NCBI GenBank assembly: GCA_001045525.1
Contig: LDWW01000029.1
Span: 1-42,168, forward strand
Origin: Chitinispirillum alkaliphilum
GTDB lineage: Bacteria > Fibrobacterota > Chitinivibrionia > Chitinivibrionales > Chitinispirillaceae
DNA length: 42,168 nt
Reading direction: 5' to 3'
In this document: positions 26,341-40,179 of the stretch, in pieces
How the letters are laid out: every line of letters starts with the position of its first letter
Position numbering within the stretch: the stretch's first letter is position 1
Notes under the pieces: generated by a model
Told to the model about the DNA's origin: nothing
What the model saw: the letters and a program-made list of their open reading frames with translations, nothing else
Databases searched by the model: none
Program-made: the position numbers and the translations under genes

Positions 26341-26970
26341 ATGAATTGTCTAATATGCCTGATAGTTGTTCTTTCGATTGTTGTGTCTCATGCCGGGACA
26401 GTCAGTGAATTTATAACTATCGATCAGTTTGGGTACAGACCTCAGGCTGCCAAAATTGCAGTTATAAGAGACCCGGTAATAGGTTTTGATTCACTTAAAA
26501 CATTCACTCCTGGTGCTCAGTATGCGGTGATGGATAACCATAGCGGCGAACAGATATTTACGGGTACTCCTGTTGAGTGGAATGAGGGACGTGTTGATTC
26601 GTCATCGGGCGACAGAGCATGGTGGTTTGATTTCTCATCTGTAGCAGAAGAGGGAACTTACTATATACTCGACGTGGAACAGGATCTCAGATCCCACTCT
26701 TTTGTTATTGCCCCCACTGTTTATGATGAAATTCTTAAGCATGCAGTAAGGACATTTTTTTATCAGCGCGCAGGGTTTGAAAAAGAAGCCCGGTATGCAG
26801 GAGAAGGGTGGGCTGATGGAGCGAGTCATGTCGGCCCTCTGCAGGATATGAACGCCAGATGTTTTTTTGATCAGGACAGGATAATCCCGAAACCGAACGG
26901 GACCTTCATGGAGGGTGGTATGATGCCGGTGATTACAATAAATATTCAGCCTGGACTGCAAATTACATAG
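26341..26970 (+). CDS. GH9 endoglucanase, 5' part (signal peptide and Ig-like domain)
   Basis: A 209-aa frame as read. Residues 1-19 are a signal peptide (MNCLICLIVVLSIVVSHAG). Residues ~22-120 are the N-terminal immunoglobulin-like domain of GH9 enzymes (ITIDQFGYRPQAAKIAVI, WWFDFSSVAEEGTYYI). The start of the catalytic domain follows (YDEILKHAVRTFFYQRAG, VGPLQDMNARCFFDQD). The last ~32 residues after the CAGGA duplication are out of frame and not homologous to anything. On its own this product would lack all catalytic residues. Confidence 0.75.
   Translation: MNCLICLIVVLSIVVSHAGTVSEFITIDQFGYRPQAAKIAVIRDPVIGFDSLKTFTPGAQYAVMDNHSGEQIFTGTPVEWNEGRVDSSSGDRAWWFDFSSVAEEGTYYILDVEQDLRSHSFVIAPTVYDEILKHAVRTFFYQRAGFEKEARYAGEGWADGASHVGPLQDMNARCFFDQDRIIPKPNGTFMEGGMMPVITINIQPGLQIT
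26872..26881 (+). repeat. CAGGA tandem duplication causing the GH9 frameshift
   Basis: Two perfect copies of CAGGA back to back. Deleting one restores the reading frame and the conserved GH9 motif, which makes this the precise frameshift lesion. Short tandem duplications of this type can revert by slippage. Confidence 0.9.
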
Positions 26971-27071
26971 TCACCTTTTTACATGCATATCAGGAGAATC
27001 CCTATGCATGGGGCGATGACTACAATATTCCTGAATCAGGTAATGGGATACCCGACATCCTGGATGAAACC

Positions 27072-28556
27072 ATGTTTGGTATGGACTGGCTCATGCGGAT
27101 GCAAAATGAGGATGGTTCTGTTTTGAGCGTAATGGGCTTGTCGCATGCATCACCCCCCTCATCGGCCACTGGCCAAAGCTTATACGGCCCTGCAAATACA
27201 ATTGCTACCCGTAGAACAGCAGCAGCATTTGCACTGGGAGCTACAGTCTTTCGAAGATCCGGTTTAAGTCAGCTTGAAAACTACGCGGATACTCTTCACA
27301 ACAGAGCCCTTTTAGCCTGGCAGTGGGCAGAAACGTATCCCGACTCAATTTTTCACAATAATAGGGATCAGAATAATTCCCGGGGGCTTGCTGCAGGAAA
27401 TCAGGAAGTTGATGATACTGAAAGATTGGCAGCCAAACTTGAAGCTGCAGTATATCTTTTTGAGTTAACAGGTGATACACAGTTCAGGGCTTTGTTTGAT
27501 GAAAATTACAAGCAACTGCCGCTTTTTCTCTGGAATAATGTTGTGGATCAGTATCGTTTCAGACATCAGTCAATGTACAAATATTATGCTGCATTACCAG
27601 ATGCAACTCCGGCAGTACGGGATGAAATCCGTTCATCTCTTACTGCCGGCTATAACCGGAATGGAAATTACATAGAAAGACTGGTCTCTCAGGCAGATCC
27701 CTACAGAGCGTTTATAGATCACTACAACTGGGGTTCAAATGCATACAAGTCAACCTATGGCATATCTTTCTGGCAGCTTAACAAATACAGCCTCGCTCAG
27801 ACCGAAGAGGTAGATTTTCTCCAGGCTGCAGAAAGTTACCTGCACTATATTCATGGTGTGAATCCTCTTGGTATGGTGTACCTGAGTAACATGGGGGAGT
27901 ATGGTGCTGGAAAAAGTGTCACCCAATTTTTTCATGCCTGGTTTAGCAACGGCAGCCCAAAATGGGATGAGGTCGGGGTTTCAGAGTATGGTCCGGCTCC
28001 GGGATTCCTAACAGGGGGGCCAAATAAGTTTTATGACTGGGATGGCTGTTGCCCTTCTGATTGTGACAGCCCTGTGAATAATGCCCGCTGTTTTGAAGAA
28101 TCCATACAACCACCAAGAAATCAGCCGCCACAGAAATCATACAAGGATTTCAATACCAGCTGGCCGCTCAATTCATGGGAAGTCACAGAAAACAGTTGCG
28201 GATATCAGTCTGATTATATTCGCCTTTTGTCAAAATTTGTGAGCAACCAGGGATTCTCATCAGTGATACCGGGTTCTTCAGAAAGAGTTTCTTTTGGTCT
28301 TGAATCTGTTAAAAAGATTACAGTACGGAACAATGTGCTGGAATTTAGCCTCCCAGCAAATGTAAGAGCAGGCAAACCTGTGCAGGTGGATATTTTTTCC
28401 CTATCGGGAAAGCTGCTTAACACTGTGCAGATCGACTCCGCTCCGGGAAAAAATCGTGTCGATTTACCTTCGGAAAACCTGTCATCGGGAACAATTCTTG
28501 TAAGGTTACGAATGGACGGCAATACGGTGTTCAGGAATATGGTTTACCTGAAGTAA
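27072..28556 (+). CDS. GH9 endoglucanase, 3' part (catalytic domain and C-terminal sorting-like domain)
   Basis: The first in-frame ATG gives 494 aa, but the homologous frame extends back to 26871 and includes DLHGGWYDAGDYNKY with the catalytic base aspartates. The (alpha/alpha)6 barrel continues through ELTGDTQFRALFDE and the substrate-binding YIHGVNPLGMVYLSNMGEYGAGKSV. The general acid lies in NSWEVTENSCGYQSDYI. The last ~85 residues form a separate beta domain (VDIFSLSGKLLNTVQI ... GTILVRLRM...MVYLK), resembling the C-terminal sorting domains of type IX-like secretion in Bacteroidota/Fibrobacterota. Substrate: beta-1,4-glucan. Alone this part lacks a signal peptide. Confidence 0.85.
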   Translation: MFGMDWLMRMQNEDGSVLSVMGLSHASPPSSATGQSLYGPANTIATRRTAAAFALGATVFRRSGLSQLENYADTLHNRALLAWQWAETYPDSIFHNNRDQNNSRGLAAGNQEVDDTERLAAKLEAAVYLFELTGDTQFRALFDENYKQLPLFLWNNVVDQYRFRHQSMYKYYAALPDATPAVRDEIRSSLTAGYNRNGNYIERLVSQADPYRAFIDHYNWGSNAYKSTYGISFWQLNKYSLAQTEEVDFLQAAESYLHYIHGVNPLGMVYLSNMGEYGAGKSVTQFFHAWFSNGSPKWDEVGVSEYGPAPGFLTGGPNKFYDWDGCCPSDCDSPVNNARCFEESIQPPRNQPPQKSYKDFNTSWPLNSWEVTENSCGYQSDYIRLLSKFVSNQGFSSVIPGSSERVSFGLESVKKITVRNNVLEFSLPANVRAGKPVQVDIFSLSGKLLNTVQIDSAPGKNRVDLPSENLSSGTILVRLRMDGNTVFRNMVYLK

Positions 28557-29730: not shown

Positions 29731-32700
29731 ATGAATACTTACAGATCAAAAATAGCAGTAGTGATGTTTGTTTTGGGGGTGATTACAGAATGTTTTAGCG
29801 GTTTTGAAGAGAAACCTATGATACTTGAGTTTAACACAGATCTAACCCGTAATAGAACCATATCCCTGCCTCTCTATGGCAGAGTAAATGTCACTGTTGA
29901 TTGGGGTGATGGTAACAAACAGTCCGTAAATGACACAGGGGACCACAGATACACCTACGAGCAGCCAGGGACATATATCGTTACAATTCACGGGAGGTTA
30001 GAGAAATTCGGGAGATTGGGAGCCAAATCCATATTAGGGTATAATAATCTTGTCAGGGTGAGGTGTTTCGGTGATTTGGGAACGACTTCCCTCAGAGGAG
30101 CTTTCTATGGGGCAAGAAATCTCCTAAAAGTGTCTGATTCCATACCTGAACATATAAATGATATGAGTGGAATGTTTAGAGGAGCCACATCTTTCAATGG
30201 GGATGTCGGCAATTGGAATGTTTCCCGTGTTACTGATATGAGTGAAATGTTTAGTGGAGCTACATCATTCAATGGGGATGTTAGTAATTGGAATGTTTCC
30301 CGTGTTACTGATATGAGTGGAATGTTTAGAGGTGCCACATCTTTCAATGGAGATATTGGTAATTGGAGGGTGTCTCGTGTTACTGATATGAGTGGAATGT
30401 TTAGTGGAGCCACATCTTTCAATGGAGATATTGGTAATTGGAGGGTGTCTCGTGTTACTGATATGAGTTATATGTTTAGCGGAGCCACATCTTTCAATGG
30501 AGATATTGGTAATTGGAGGGTGTCTCGTGTTACTGATATGAGTGAAATGTTTAGTGGAGCCACAAATTTCAATGGGGATATTGGTAATTGGAGGGTGTCT
30601 CGTGTTGTTGATATGAGTTATATGTTTAGCGGAGCCACAAATTTCAATCAGGATGTTAGCCAATGGAATATTTCTTCTGCTACAGATGTGGAGCACCTAT
30701 TTGATAGTAGTGGGATAAGTCCTGCTAATGACACAGCATCAATCATAATGTTTTTACGATTGATACCAAACAAAATATGGCCAACAGAGAAAAATCGCTT
30801 ACTTCACCATGCGATCAGCGTACGGGACAGTATAACTGCTTTGTATTTAATTCGCAATGGGGCGCCCCTAAATAAGCCAAAGCAGGATCCCGTTTTGGTC
30901 AATTGTATCAGGAATAATCTTTTTTCGGTTGCAAAGGAAGCTGTCCTAAACGGTGCAGACATCAATGCTGAGGTTTGTATGGGTCCATATCGTAATGAAT
31001 GGAGCAGTCCCATCGCAACAGCATTTTTTTACCGCCACAGTGATTCCTCTCAGGCAATAGCTCGATTTTTAATTGACGAGCATATTTCAAGGGGAATTCC
31101 ATACATGGAAAATAAATGGTTGTATAAAGCTCTGTATGCAACATCTTGTAACACGGATTTTTTTTCCTATATTCTTAACAACACAAATCCTCCCTCATCT
31201 CTATTGGATTCTGTTTTTACTAATATCATGTTTCGAAAATGCAGCGGTAAAGCGGGCGAGTTACTTATGTTGCAGCAAACTTTTACCTTGCCGGTTGTGC
31301 ATATTGCGATTCGAAATGCATTCAGAGCAAAGAATTTTGATAAATTTGAACAACTACTACTATTAGATACTTTAGAGTTATTCAAAGATTCACTTGTCGA
31401 TACACTTCTAACATTTTCAATCAAAAGGTTCAATACAGACAGTGAATATTTTGTTAATCTGGCACAACTGATTCCTGAGCCAGCTCTTGGTATAAGACAG
31501 GAACCTTTTTATACTCTTATTAACAGGCTATACCCCGTAACCTCTTCGCGTGACTCTTTGTTAGCTAAAAAATTCAAAAAATTGTATCCAGAAAACTTCG
31601 GGTATTTTTATCAGCAAAAGTTAGAAAACCTACCACTGAATGACCGCATGCGTGAAAACATACGTGCCAATAATCGGGATGATTTTGAAAAACTGATTTA
31701 TTCCGGAGTACACTTTTCGGAAATTGATACAGCACGGCACCACCGTAACAGTCTCGTTTCCTATGCTATTTCAAATGAAAGGTATGATTTTATAAAAAGT
31801 CTTGTGCAAAATGGTGCTGATATCAACAGATATGTCAATGGAAGGAAATCTTTGATGCAATGGGCACTGGATGAAGGGGATACAACTCTTATACATCTTC
31901 TTTTAACAAGAGAGGATCTTGATCCACAGCAAGTGATCTTGGCGATACTGTCAGCTGTTGAAAATCAAGACATTTCTCTGTTCGATAAAGCTTTTGAAAA
32001 AGCTAATCCGGAGTCTTGGAATATTTCCAGAGTTCTGCGCAAGGCGTTCTTGAGTTCAAGTATACATATGATAAAAAGCATTGTCGAGAAAGATAACTGG
32101 AAAGAATTTCTTACCAGAGAAAGATATTATCTTCGCATCATAGCAGAAAATGGACTTACGGAAGTTTTTGAATTGATGATTAGTGATAGTGTCAGTTTTA
32201 GTGAAGGGTATCTCCAGAATGCATTAAATATTGCATGTCGAAATGGACATGTTGAATTGGCAAAACGTTTGTTGGATGCTGGCGCAGAACTGCCTCCTAC
32301 TTTACAGTGTATGAGTTATCACCCATTCACCTCGTTTTCTGATAATGAGTATGACTCATCAAAAAACCAGCTTGTCAAACTGTTTTCCAACTACGAAATG
32401 TCTGAAAATCTGAAAAGACATATCCTTGTCTATGCCATATCTTATAACAAGATTGACCTTGTACAGCGGATTTTGGATTTGGGGATTTCAGATTCTGTTC
32501 TAAATGAAAGAAGTATTCGATTACCAAATATGTTTGAGAACCTGACTATTCTTCAATACGCCTTTCGTAAACGGTGTGATTCCTTAGTGCTGGTTATGCT
32601 TGATTCAGGATTGGATTATGTCATCGTTGACACTGTCAGAGGAAATGCTTATGGATCTGTTCAGTCACAGAGTACCATCAGGCGAAGAGAACTCCTTGAG

Positions 32701-33318
32701 ATGGCTATCAAAGACAGCAGAATAGAATTAGCACGAATACTGCTTAAAAGATATGATCACTTTGAAGAAAATGTTTTTTTAAACACAGCCATACATAGTG
32801 GATATTTAAATATCGCAGGAGAGATTTTATCAAAAACATTAGATGTTAACATGCCCGATATTATTACATTTAAAACACCTTTGGAAATGGCTGTTGAACA
32901 TGGTCATATTGATTTTGTCAGGAAGATAGTAAGCAGTGGTGCAGATCTGTCAACCGAAAAGGATGCCGGTTACGTATTGCTGGCTTTGAAATATGGATAT
33001 TTGGATATTGCTGCTTATCTGATTCAGGCCGGAGCACAGATTGGCGCGGGGGAGGGACCAGAGCTTATTTTCGCAGTGCATCGGGAAAATGCCGATATGG
33101 TACGACTACTTCTTGCTAATGGGGCCACTCTTGATCAGGAGGCATGGAAAGAGGAGTTAAACTTTAGGGCCTATGAATCACTGAATGCGACAGAAAGAGA
33201 AGGACATAGAACTGTTTATCGAAATTATCGTAAGGTTGCCGGATTACTTTCGCAAGTCAGGAATGATGATTTCAGAAAATTTCTCGAAAGGGAATTTCAA
33301 AAAGGAGCTGTAAAATGA
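29731..33318 (+). CDS. Giant exported PKD-like / BspA-repeat / ankyrin-repeat protein
   Basis: A 1195-aa protein. Residues 1-~24 are a signal peptide. Residues ~33-95 resemble a PKD-like beta domain (VNVTVDWGDG ... YTYEQPGTYIVTIHG). Residues 142-316 are seven near-perfect 25-residue BspA-like (DUF285) repeats of the type VTDMSGMFSGATSFNGDIGNW. From ~350 to the end there are many ankyrin-type helical pairs, clear in places (ALNIACRNGHVELAKRLLDAGAE, TPLEMAVEHGHIDFVRKIVSSGADL, IFAVHRENADMVRLLLANGATL) and degenerate in others. It is exported, so the ankyrin solenoid probably lies in the periplasm or outside. AGAGGA precedes the ATG. It overlaps the DUF2330 gene by 4 bp, indicating a joint function; adhesion or protein binding is a guess. 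Confidence 0.85.
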   Translation: MNTYRSKIAVVMFVLGVITECFSGFEEKPMILEFNTDLTRNRTISLPLYGRVNVTVDWGDGNKQSVNDTGDHRYTYEQPGTYIVTIHGRLEKFGRLGAKSILGYNNLVRVRCFGDLGTTSLRGAFYGARNLLKVSDSIPEHINDMSGMFRGATSFNGDVGNWNVSRVTDMSEMFSGATSFNGDVSNWNVSRVTDMSGMFRGATSFNGDIGNWRVSRVTDMSGMFSGATSFNGDIGNWRVSRVTDMSYMFSGATSFNGDIGNWRVSRVTDMSEMFSGATNFNGDIGNWRVSRVVDMSYMFSGATNFNQDVSQWNISSATDVEHLFDSSGISPANDTASIIMFLRLIPNKIWPTEKNRLLHHAISVRDSITALYLIRNGAPLNKPKQDPVLVNCIRNNLFSVAKEAVLNGADINAEVCMGPYRNEWSSPIATAFFYRHSDSSQAIARFLIDEHISRGIPYMENKWLYKALYATSCNTDFFSYILNNTNPPSSLLDSVFTNIMFRKCSGKAGELLMLQQTFTLPVVHIAIRNAFRAKNFDKFEQLLLLDTLELFKDSLVDTLLTFSIKRFNTDSEYFVNLAQLIPEPALGIRQEPFYTLINRLYPVTSSRDSLLAKKFKKLYPENFGYFYQQKLENLPLNDRMRENIRANNRDDFEKLIYSGVHFSEIDTARHHRNSLVSYAISNERYDFIKSLVQNGADINRYVNGRKSLMQWALDEGDTTLIHLLLTREDLDPQQVILAILSAVENQDISLFDKAFEKANPESWNISRVLRKAFLSSSIHMIKSIVEKDNWKEFLTRERYYLRIIAENGLTEVFELMISDSVSFSEGYLQNALNIACRNGHVELAKRLLDAGAELPPTLQCMSYHPFTSFSDNEYDSSKNQLVKLFSNYEMSENLKRHILVYAISYNKIDLVQRILDLGISDSVLNERSIRLPNMFENLTILQYAFRKRCDSLVLVMLDSGLDYVIVDTVRGNAYGSVQSQSTIRRRELLEMAIKDSRIELARILLKRYDHFEENVFLNTAIHSGYLNIAGEILSKTLDVNMPDIITFKTPLEMAVEHGHIDFVRKIVSSGADLSTEKDAGYVLLALKYGYLDIAAYLIQAGAQIGAGEGPELIFAVHRENADMVRLLLANGATLDQEAWKEELNFRAYESLNATEREGHRTVYRNYRKVAGLLSQVRNDDFRKFLEREFQKGAVK
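30154..30678 (+). repeat. Seven tandem 75-bp coding repeats (BspA/DUF285 type)
   Basis: Period 75 bp, seven full units plus a degenerate eighth. Units differ at a few sites only (for example SGMF/SEMF/SYMF and GNWN/GNWR), so several are nearly identical at DNA level. That points to recent unequal exchange and likely copy-number variation between strains. All are in frame. Confidence 0.92.
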
Positions 33319-34242: not shown

Positions 34243-34319
34243 AATGTGTATCCAGTTGCATCGGTGATGTATCAGGCAAAATATGGTTACTGGTTTCGGC
34301 TTGTCGAGTGATCTGCTAT

Positions 34320-34687
34320 ATGAAACTCAGTGTCCTGATTCAATGTTACAACCATAAACCTTATCTGCAAGAAGCCATCAAAAGCGTTCATGATCAGGGG
34401 ATGACTAATGTTGGAGTTATAGTAGATGATGATGGCAGTTGCGACAATAGTGCTCAACTGCTTCAAAAATTACAGAAACAACACGATTTCAATCTTATTT
34501 TACAAAGAATTTATCCCGACACTCAATCACCTTTTATCCGTTCTAAAAGTTGAATATCTATGCATGTCAGCTGGAGATGAGTTTCTTTTCCGAAAAACAA
34601 ATTTGTTATCTGGATAAACATCGTCAATGTTCGGTGCTGCTGGAAAACTTTATTGCTGTTGATAGATTTCTAAAGTACTACCTTTAG
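34320..34687 (+). pseudogene. Family 2 glycosyltransferase remnant
   Basis: The start MKLSVLIQCYNHKPYLQEAI and VDDDGSCDNSAQLL match the N-terminal UDP-sugar-binding region of GT2 enzymes. Homology then moves to a second frame (TLNHLLSVLKVEYLCMSAGDEF, the usual N-x-G-x-Y-I...GDDD-like block) and to a third (SEKQICYLDKHRQCSVLLENF). So at least two frameshifts are present, near 34505 and 34590, and about two-thirds of a normal GT2 is missing at the 3' end. It is a decayed gene, probably once involved in surface polysaccharide synthesis. Confidence 0.75.
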
Positions 34688-38163: not shown

Positions 38164-39255
38164 TCACTTTGCTTTCATAATTTGGTTGTAATTACAATGA
38201 AGAAGCTCTCCTGTACCTTCTTTTCGTAAGTGAAGGCCGTTGCCCCTGCAGTATCTCCAGACTTTGCACTTTTTGCACTCCCCGGTTTTCAACCAGTCTC
38301 TATTTCGCATAACATCATAACGGGAGTTCCAGATATCCATAAAACGGTCCTTATAAATACTGCCTTGTATAAAGTCAGCTCTTAATGAGGGGCATGAGGA
38401 AACAGAGCCATCTGCAAGAACAGATCCGATTTGTACTCCTGCTCTGCAGTAAAATGGTGTATCGCGAACTTGCATTTCATAGTTGCCCAGGAACCCTTCA
38501 CAGCCATACGAAATTGAAATATCTCCTTCTTTTCTGCTTTTTTTAATAAAGTCAAGCAAATCTCTTAACTGCTTTGGGTTGAGTTTGAGTTCATCGTTAT
38601 CTGCAGCTCTGCCTTTGGGGAAAATAGTTGCAAGCCGCCACCTTTTTACTCCCAAACTGATAAGAGTGTTTTTAATCTCATTAAGAGTGGTTATGTTTTT
38701 TTGATTAACGCATGTTACCACATCCAAAAAAAGTCCTTCGTTGAATCGGGCAACTGCAAGATTAATAGCGTTGACAGCTCGACTGAATGATTTTTCTTTT
38801 CCTCTGAACCAATCATGATCATCTTCAAGACCATCCAGACTTATTGTCATAAAACTGATATTCGATCTGAGGAGTGCTTTGAACCTTTGCGGAGTCATGT
38901 AATAGCCGTTTGTAACAATGCCCCATTTAAAACCAAGTCTGTGAATTTCAGCTCCTGCCTCTGCAAGATCAGATCTCATCAGAGGCTCCCCGCCTGTAAT
39001 TACTACAAATACTTTTGAGTGATCCCGGTGTGTTTTAATATTTTCAAGCACATTGAGAAAGTGCTTTACAGGCATGTCAGGTACACCAGTATCGGGTGAA
39101 CAGTCACTTCCGCAATGAATACATGCGAGATTGCACCGAACAGTACATTCCCAAAAAAGATAGCTCAATTCATGAACTTTAGCCTCTGCTTTCTTTTTTC
39201 TACTGTATAGGTCAAGGGCTAGTTTTTTCTTAAAAGGAATCTTCAGATCACTCAT
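38164..39255 (-). CDS. Radical SAM/SPASM enzyme, rSAM-lipoprotein-system type
   Basis: A 363-aa enzyme. The [4Fe-4S]/SAM motif is C41-x3-C45-x2-C48 within ELSYLFWECTVRCNLACIHCGSDC-like sequence. The GGEP motif (TGGEPLMR) and other barrel strands follow. A C-terminal SPASM domain has FYCRAGVQIGSVLADGSVSSCPS and a C-x2-C...C cluster in GECKKCKVWRYCRGNG. SPASM enzymes bind extra iron-sulfur clusters and often modify peptides. The N-terminal KKKLALDLYSRK...HELSYLFWE resembles, from memory, the Bacteroidetes 'rSAM/lipoprotein system' enzymes (TIGR04133-like). Its start overlaps the partner's stop by 4 bp (ATGA), so they are translationally coupled. Substrate is likely the partner or a small molecule, not established. 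Confidence 0.88.
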   Translation of the reverse strand: MSDLKIPFKKKLALDLYSRKKKAEAKVHELSYLFWECTVRCNLACIHCGSDCSPDTGVPDMPVKHFLNVLENIKTHRDHSKVFVVITGGEPLMRSDLAEAGAEIHRLGFKWGIVTNGYYMTPQRFKALLRSNISFMTISLDGLEDDHDWFRGKEKSFSRAVNAINLAVARFNEGLFLDVVTCVNQKNITTLNEIKNTLISLGVKRWRLATIFPKGRAADNDELKLNPKQLRDLLDFIKKSRKEGDISISYGCEGFLGNYEMQVRDTPFYCRAGVQIGSVLADGSVSSCPSLRADFIQGSIYKDRFMDIWNSRYDVMRNRDWLKTGECKKCKVWRYCRGNGLHLRKEGTGELLHCNYNQIMKAK

Positions 39256-39977
39256 TTAACTACGACTCTCAGATTCAGATCGTGTCTTGAACCCGCTACA
39301 TTCATAATGTATACCCCTTTGGAAACTGATCTGGTATTCCATCTTATGCTGCCATCTTCTGAAGTCTGCAGAGTCTCGATTTTCTCTCCCTTCAGATTAA
39401 CTATTTTTACTTTTGCATTTTTTTCGTTAAAATCCGGAATCCTTACAACCAGTGTTTTACCCTGATATGTATACATCTGATTAACATTTGAATTGCTTAT
39501 GGCGTTTTTAACCGAAGAAAAACCTCTGTGAGTAAGGTATACTGTATGGATAGAATCCTTATCATCATCAAAATAAAACCATTCTGAGACATAAGTCGAA
39601 TATTCAGTTCCATGTACCAAGACAAAAGGATAATATCGGACCGGTTCATCCACAGAAAATTTGAAATACCCGGTGTCGTCTGTATAGGTGCTGTCCAGCT
39701 TAATGTAGTCAGATAGTCTAATTAAAGATCCGTACATAACTGCCAGTTCCTCGCACAGAAATAATCTTATGTTACCCATCACTGTGGAATCTTTTGCATT
39801 CAACGCTATTCCTCTCAGGCTATGGCTCTTTGTCTCTTCATTTTCAGATGATTCTGTCTTGTTGATTTGGCCTGTAATTACACAAAAAAGAGCAAAAATA
39901 ATTGTTATAACTTTTGAATAAAGAGAAAATATTGACTTGCACGACCAACGCGACATTTTGATTAATTGTCTTCCCAT
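39252..39977 (-). CDS. Exported partner protein of the radical SAM enzyme, with sorting-like C-terminus
   Basis: Start at ATG 39977 is chosen for GGAGGGG 4-5 nt upstream; longer frames have none. The product is 241 aa. Residues ~15-37 form a signal peptide or anchor (SIFSLYSKVITIIFALFCVITG) without a lipobox. Residues ~55-130 look like a carboxypeptidase-regulatory-like beta domain (LRGIALNAKDSTVMGNIRL ... YTDDTGYFKFSV). The C-terminal ~75 residues resemble a type IX-like sorting domain (VKIVNLKGEKIETL ... KGVYIMNVAG ... LRVVVK). In the described rSAM/lipoprotein pairs the partner is a lipoprotein with a related beta domain; here the tail differs. It is first in the two-gene operon. Confidence 0.75.
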   Translation of the reverse strand: MGRQLIKMSRWSCKSIFSLYSKVITIIFALFCVITGQINKTESSENEETKSHSLRGIALNAKDSTVMGNIRLFLCEELAVMYGSLIRLSDYIKLDSTYTDDTGYFKFSVDEPVRYYPFVLVHGTEYSTYVSEWFYFDDDKDSIHTVYLTHRGFSSVKNAISNSNVNQMYTYQGKTLVVRIPDFNEKNAKVKIVNLKGEKIETLQTSEDGSIRWNTRSVSKGVYIMNVAGSRHDLNLRVVVK

Positions 39978-40179
39978 TCCACCCCTCCAAAATTTTTGAT
40001 ATGTTATCTTTGAGGAATTGCTATCTTTGAACCGCATGATAGAGCAAAAGCTTGAGCCTTGCTCTGTGATCTTTAGCACTGTGTATCACCACTGTAAATG
40101 ACCTATATAGACAATATATAAAAATTTAAACGAATAAACATATTGTTTTTAAATCAGGAGGATTTTTGGGGTTAAACTG

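Follow-up and report, generated by a model that had tools for sequence, protein, structure and literature searches.

NCBI describes the radical SAM enzymes of the TIGR04133 family and the lipoproteins of the TIGR04134 family only as a pair of hypothetical equivalog status, and no paper naming this pair was found in our literature search. TIGR04103, a second radical SAM family relevant here, is presumably the PlpX family, which fits the Nif11/NHLP neighbourhood described for PlpX. A survey by Scott et al. (Chem, 2022) is said to have revealed widespread splicing; the papers citing it mention only widespread, previously unrecognised RiPPs. The PlpXY splicease (Morinaka 2018, as presented in PMC11002830 and PMC10533398) acts on X-Y-G targets, with several sites per precursor and with MYG and LYG as natural splice sites (PMC10533398, PMC11002830). 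Its precursors are small Nif11/NHLP peptides, Nif11/NHLP also being the gene neighbourhood of PlpX (PMC11002830), and PlpX requires the small RRE protein PlpY. Inhibitory activity has been reported for spliceotides (PMC10373908).

Here, a gene pair was analysed in a 42,168-nucleotide stretch of Chitinispirillum alkaliphilum DNA (contig LDWW01000029.1), referred to as the window. Like PlpA3, the partner protein of this pair contains MYG; in contrast to the PlpXY precursors, it would be a folded protein that leaves the cell by way of a Sec signal peptide and is shown on the surface, and its locus has no neighbouring RRE helper. On balance, sequence comparison tilts towards a splicease-like enzyme that would rewrite surface-displayed proteins, exported here by the type IX secretion system (T9SS) instead of being lipid-anchored.

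The gene pair, its anchoring types and its distribution

The two ORFs and their ATGA overlap, as described in the original prediction, were confirmed from the sequence (Table 1). The partner gene lies upstream, starting at the ATG at 39977 behind a GGAGG (39988-39984), and its TGA (39254-39252) overlaps the ATG of the enzyme gene (39255-39253). A second enzyme/partner pair of identical order and domains is located on another contig of the same genome.

Table 1. Features of the enzyme/partner locus in the window.
Feature	Position	Strand	Evidence
TIGR04133 radical SAM/SPASM enzyme, 363 aa	38164..39255	minus	NCBIfam TIGR04133; Pfam Radical_SAM and SPASM
CxxxCxxC of radical SAM cluster (C41, C45, C48), then G49-S50	39112..39135	minus	Residue comparison with PlpX-type enzymes
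SPASM domain, residues 270-331; Cys 270, 288, 327, 330	38263..38448	minus	Pfam PF13186
Exported partner, probable substrate, 241 aa	39252..39977	minus	ORF, homologues in alignment A1, co-occurrence
Signal peptide, residues 1-37, without lipobox; proposed double role as enzyme-recognition leader	39867..39977	minus	Identity comparison
Beta-sandwich, carboxypeptidase-regulatory-like domain, ~residues 52-150	39528..39824	minus	AlphaFold strands; PF13620
Met81-Tyr82-Gly83, predicted modification site (X-Y-G motif)	39729..39737	minus	Conservation, disordered loop, YG enrichment
T9SS type A C-terminal sorting domain, residues 181-241	39255..39437	minus	PF18962, SprA in genome, 8glk_D match
Shine-Dalgarno GGAGG of partner gene	39984..39988	minus	Sequence

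The enzyme scores 519.1 bits against TIGR04133 (NCBIfam cut-off 425), placing it well inside the family and bearing out the likeness to radical SAM/lipoprotein pairs drawn earlier. Its Pfam matches, Radical_SAM at 73.9 bits and SPASM (PF13186) at 34.3 bits (cut-off 21.5), both lie above the cut-offs, and the three cluster cysteines and the SPASM region read from the sequence at the outset were located as expected.

The signal peptide of the partner ends at FALFCVITG, followed by Q, and has no lipobox, in agreement with the original prediction; membership of TIGR04134 was rejected, there being no match to the model (cut-off 39.8) and no lipobox. The C-terminal tail scores 26.4-28.6 bits against PF18962 (cut-off 27) and 21.3 bits against TIGR04183 (cut-off 23). 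The T9SS tail is regarded as probably real, though borderline in this one protein, whose score lies at the cut-off: all 11 homologues of the window partner match PF18962, and the genome encodes the T9SS translocon protein SprA (447 bits vs 200) together with 36 sorting-tail matches. Part of the predicted partner structure also matches one chain (8glk_D) in the solved structure of a T9SS-substrate complex, with a TM-score of 0.71. The carboxypeptidase-regulatory-like domain that had been proposed (PF13620) is significant in two of the 11 homologues and weak in the window protein itself (E 0.09). AlphaFold evidence was read locally only because the full partner model is of low confidence (overall pLDDT 66, pTM 0.36), and global fold matches of this model to pilins were set aside for the same reason.

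A close TIGR04133 match was found in 90 of the 168 genomes of the window's phylum (89 above cut-off), other members being encoded in Bacteroidota, Spirochaetota and one Ignavibacteria-type genome. Within the order, 10 of the 11 genomes with TIGR04133 also encode a full-length homologue of the window partner (alignment A1), as against none of the 29 without it (Fisher p = 1e-8, a value that is too small since the genomes are related). The two findings named beforehand as grounds for abandoning the idea, an enzyme outside TIGR04133-like families and a partner missing beside orthologues, were looked for and did not appear. In a same-genus relative (G005), a partner gene (locus L177, from 2001) is interrupted by in-frame stops and no enzyme adjoins it.

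The partners fall into distinct anchoring types. In the phylum's largest genus (about 80 species), they are lipoproteins (MFYKHWKKIALALTGFFWASC...) with poly-serine or Ser-rich sequences, often encoded two or three in tandem, with mutually unrelated mature parts; those of Bacteroidota and Treponema are TIGR04134-type lipoproteins, and those of the window's family are T9SS proteins. In a sister family, the G030a partner exceeds the cut-offs of TIGR04134 (46.5 vs 39.8) and of the T9SS sorting model (32 vs 23) alike and thereby links the two types; the T9SS-type partners are accordingly taken as relatives with a changed anchor that belong to one and the same system. The window locus shares with the TIGR04133/TIGR04134 pair the enzyme family, the gene order and an exported partner with a beta domain and Tyr-Gly, whereas its partner, which has a T9SS sorting domain at the C-terminus and no lipobox, fails TIGR04134, so that the different anchoring mode suggested earlier holds.

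Elsewhere in the window, two consecutive ORFs (26341-28556) appear to be fragments of a single secreted glycoside hydrolase that has a T9SS-like tail; a large protein (29731-33318) carries near-identical NWxVSRVTDMSxMFSGATSFNGDI repeats followed by ankyrin-like repeats; and short overlapping ORFs (34308-34617) resemble the start of a family 2 glycosyltransferase and are probably a remnant.

Tyr-Gly in the exported partners

Of the 49 non-redundant exported proteins paired with TIGR04133 enzymes, 46 contain Tyr-Gly. The set spans three phyla and includes both lipoproteins and T9SS proteins, many of which are mutually unrelated; Tyr-Gly as a common feature of these partners appears to be described here for the first time. 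YG is the most enriched dipeptide of all in the set, with 93 occurrences observed vs 27.1 +/- 4.8 in shuffled sequences (3.4-fold) and never more than 41 in any of 500 shuffles, and 298 non-partner ORFs from these loci give an observed/expected ratio of 0.96. An effect of composition was rejected on the basis of the shuffles and these control genes. The residue after YG is mostly V, P, I or T, and P stands at +2 in 40 of the 93 cases, YGxP being present at 23 of 266 YG in the other ORFs of the loci. The motif is kept in partners whose mature regions are unrelated. As for the three partners without YG, L013 is a wrong-frame ORF, L059 has a mis-chosen start (its full ORF contains CYG and AYG), and L019 is a true exception, its second upstream lipoprotein carrying YG.

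In the T9SS-type partners, YG occupies a single alignment position in one to four copies, Tyr82 and Gly83 being nearly invariant. In the AlphaFold model of the window partner, it falls in a disordered loop (residues 79-89, pLDDT <50) between strands 71-76 and 92-98 of the beta domain. The window MYG precedes S-L, the commoner context elsewhere being V/P/I-P. Taken together, the independent comparisons give good support to the proposal that the partner is the enzyme's substrate, with YG as the predicted site. The original prediction of a variant system producing a modified secreted protein is supported in its general form; it had left the modified site unnamed, and YG is now a specific candidate.

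Many Bacteroidota and Treponema partners (L050-L068) read ...QACYGTP..., with C-Y-G-T-P or a similar motif and the Cys at the lipobox. Where Cys is the X of CYG, a splice would touch the lipidated residue.

Possible kinship with PlpX-type enzymes and the predicted reaction

In phylogenetic analysis, the window enzyme and 27 other TIGR04133 members form one clade (support 100/100), which joins the PlpX/TIGR04103-like enzymes, separately from AhbD, TIGR04053, TIGR04347, MftC and PqqE, with support of 98/96, rising to 100/97 once long branches are removed; in the AU test, trees placing the TIGR04133 or the PlpX group with AhbD/TIGR04053 were not rejected (p about 0.12). The GDL-motif peptide radical SAM maturases (TIGR03913) also group with PlpX in the tree, and differ in having small DUF1843 substrates, YG being present in only some of those sampled. 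The HCGS sequence (G49-S50) and Trp206 are common to the TIGR04133 and PlpX-like groups and mostly absent in other SPASM enzymes, G49 being present in 28/28 TIGR04133, 6/7 PlpX-like and 0/9 other SPASM enzymes. The window enzyme scores 121 bits against TIGR04103, far from the cut-off of 725, and its assignment as a TIGR04103 splicease was rejected. Among other NCBIfam models TIGR04103 is only marginally the nearest, since TIGR04053 and AhbD follow at 119 and 114 bits. A PDB search with the enzyme returned distant radical SAM enzymes only.

Within these groups, divergent TIGR04133-like enzymes on long branches were encountered at L085, L099 and L100 (about 270-324 bits, below the cut-off), the L085 partner sequence reading AACYGTP. 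An annotated Nostoc TIGR04103 enzyme is accompanied by a precursor ending in ...SIALYGLPPELF and then by a 71-residue PlpY-like ORF, and in Spirochaetales a TIGR04103-like enzyme has as its neighbour a peptide with a GG leader that ends in ...LVKYGIIIPMYGVPVPKE. A candidate new spliceotide is a 55-residue GG-leader peptide (...GPDPLVKYGIIIPMYGVPVPKE; L113 1218-1385 and L127 1718-1885, both minus strand) that in a Spirochaetales genome adjoins a TIGR04103-like radical SAM enzyme whose C-terminus is greatly extended.

Tyramine excision is our best guess for the reaction at the partner's Tyr-Gly, one we hold with slight preference. Another radical SAM chemistry at the same place, such as a tyrosine cross-link, a change of the tyrosine side chain or oxidation/cleavage at the glycine, is a real but clearly less probable reading: YG enrichment tells the site and not the reaction, SPASM enzymes catalyse many reactions, and the AU test leaves kinship with PlpX short of proof, yet splice sites already known (LYGLPP, MYGVP) show X-Y-G followed by V, L or P and with P at +2, and the fingerprint residues are those common to the TIGR04133 and PlpX-like groups.

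Signal peptides as candidate leaders

The signal peptides of the T9SS-type partners show a mean pairwise identity of 54%, compared with 31-32% in the remainder of the proteins, and M1, F28, F31 and G36 are invariant in them (alignment A1). Among the lipoprotein-type partners, pairs with less than 35% identity in the mature part retain 59% identity in the leader. A conserved signal peptide in front of a variable mature part is the pattern expected of a leader. A model of the lipoprotein leader, built from one genus, gave 20 strong matches (19 at TIGR04133 loci) across five genomes, followed by a drop in score from 37.5 to 20.7 bits; the weaker matches that were readable were mostly YG lipoproteins too. 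In one genome (G004), a single TIGR04133 gene is matched by four partners that all carry the leader and YG, and two of these lie far from it. Such a shared leader on multiple and remote partners is the trace expected of a leader-guided enzyme with several substrates, acting also in trans.

No RRE protein was found beside the window pair in a search by PqqD similarity, which a PlpY-like protein lacking such similarity could escape, the genome's only PqqD-like RRE adjoining another radical SAM gene on contig C23. With no adjacent RRE, leader recognition would fall to the TIGR04133 enzyme itself. A second signal-peptide type (MNIRKFWRLSCLTVASFFWASC) was seen on more YG lipoproteins away from the main loci (L164-L166, L169, L170), which are perhaps served by divergent enzymes or in trans.

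Modification of the partner elsewhere, for example at the conserved Cys32 or in the beta domain with YG merely a structural turn, is improbable: conservation among the T9SS-type partners extends to C32, G56, N69 and G103, but unrelated Ser-rich lipoprotein partners share only the signal peptide and YG and not those residues, and YG lies in a low-confidence loop instead of a predicted turn of the core. Still a little less credible is a partner that serves as an exported helper or binding protein for an enzyme acting on a small molecule or another protein, since, although adjacency and co-occurrence are no proof by themselves that the partner is the substrate, an enzyme that is soluble in the cytosol can encounter an exported protein only before export, and one enzyme with several tandem or remote partners, one leader and variable YG repeats resembles a RiPP system with its precursors.

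For modification at Tyr-Gly by a splicease-like reaction, the following course is proposed. Before export, the TIGR04133 enzyme would recognise the conserved signal peptide of the partner as a leader and act at the Met81-Tyr82-Gly83 loop; the modified partner would then pass through Sec and the type IX system to be displayed on the cell surface, and in related bacteria the modified protein would instead be a lipid-anchored lipoprotein. Of this scheme, the pairing, the YG motif, the conservation of the leader and the T9SS tail can be read from the sequences; the partner's status as substrate, the function of the leader, the chemistry and the biological use are inferred. An alpha-keto amide on the displayed partner could be reactive there and might, for instance, inhibit proteases; a role as surface protease inhibitor is speculation by analogy with the inhibition reported for spliceotides (PMC10373908).

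The YG motif and the predicted excision provide a specific candidate target residue and reaction for the TIGR04133/TIGR04134 pair. More broadly, and with about even chances in our judgement, TIGR04133 may represent a splicease branch that installs alpha-keto-beta-amino acids in surface proteins without an RRE helper, using the Sec signal peptide as leader, across the window's phylum, Bacteroidota and Spirochaetota, one lineage having exchanged lipid anchoring for type IX secretion. If this is true, ketone-bearing proteins with an edited backbone would be present on the surface of many Bacteroidota and Spirochaetota and of relatives of the window's host, and might there block proteases or form covalent links with other molecules, and the family would be a source of helper-free splicing enzymes for large exported proteins.
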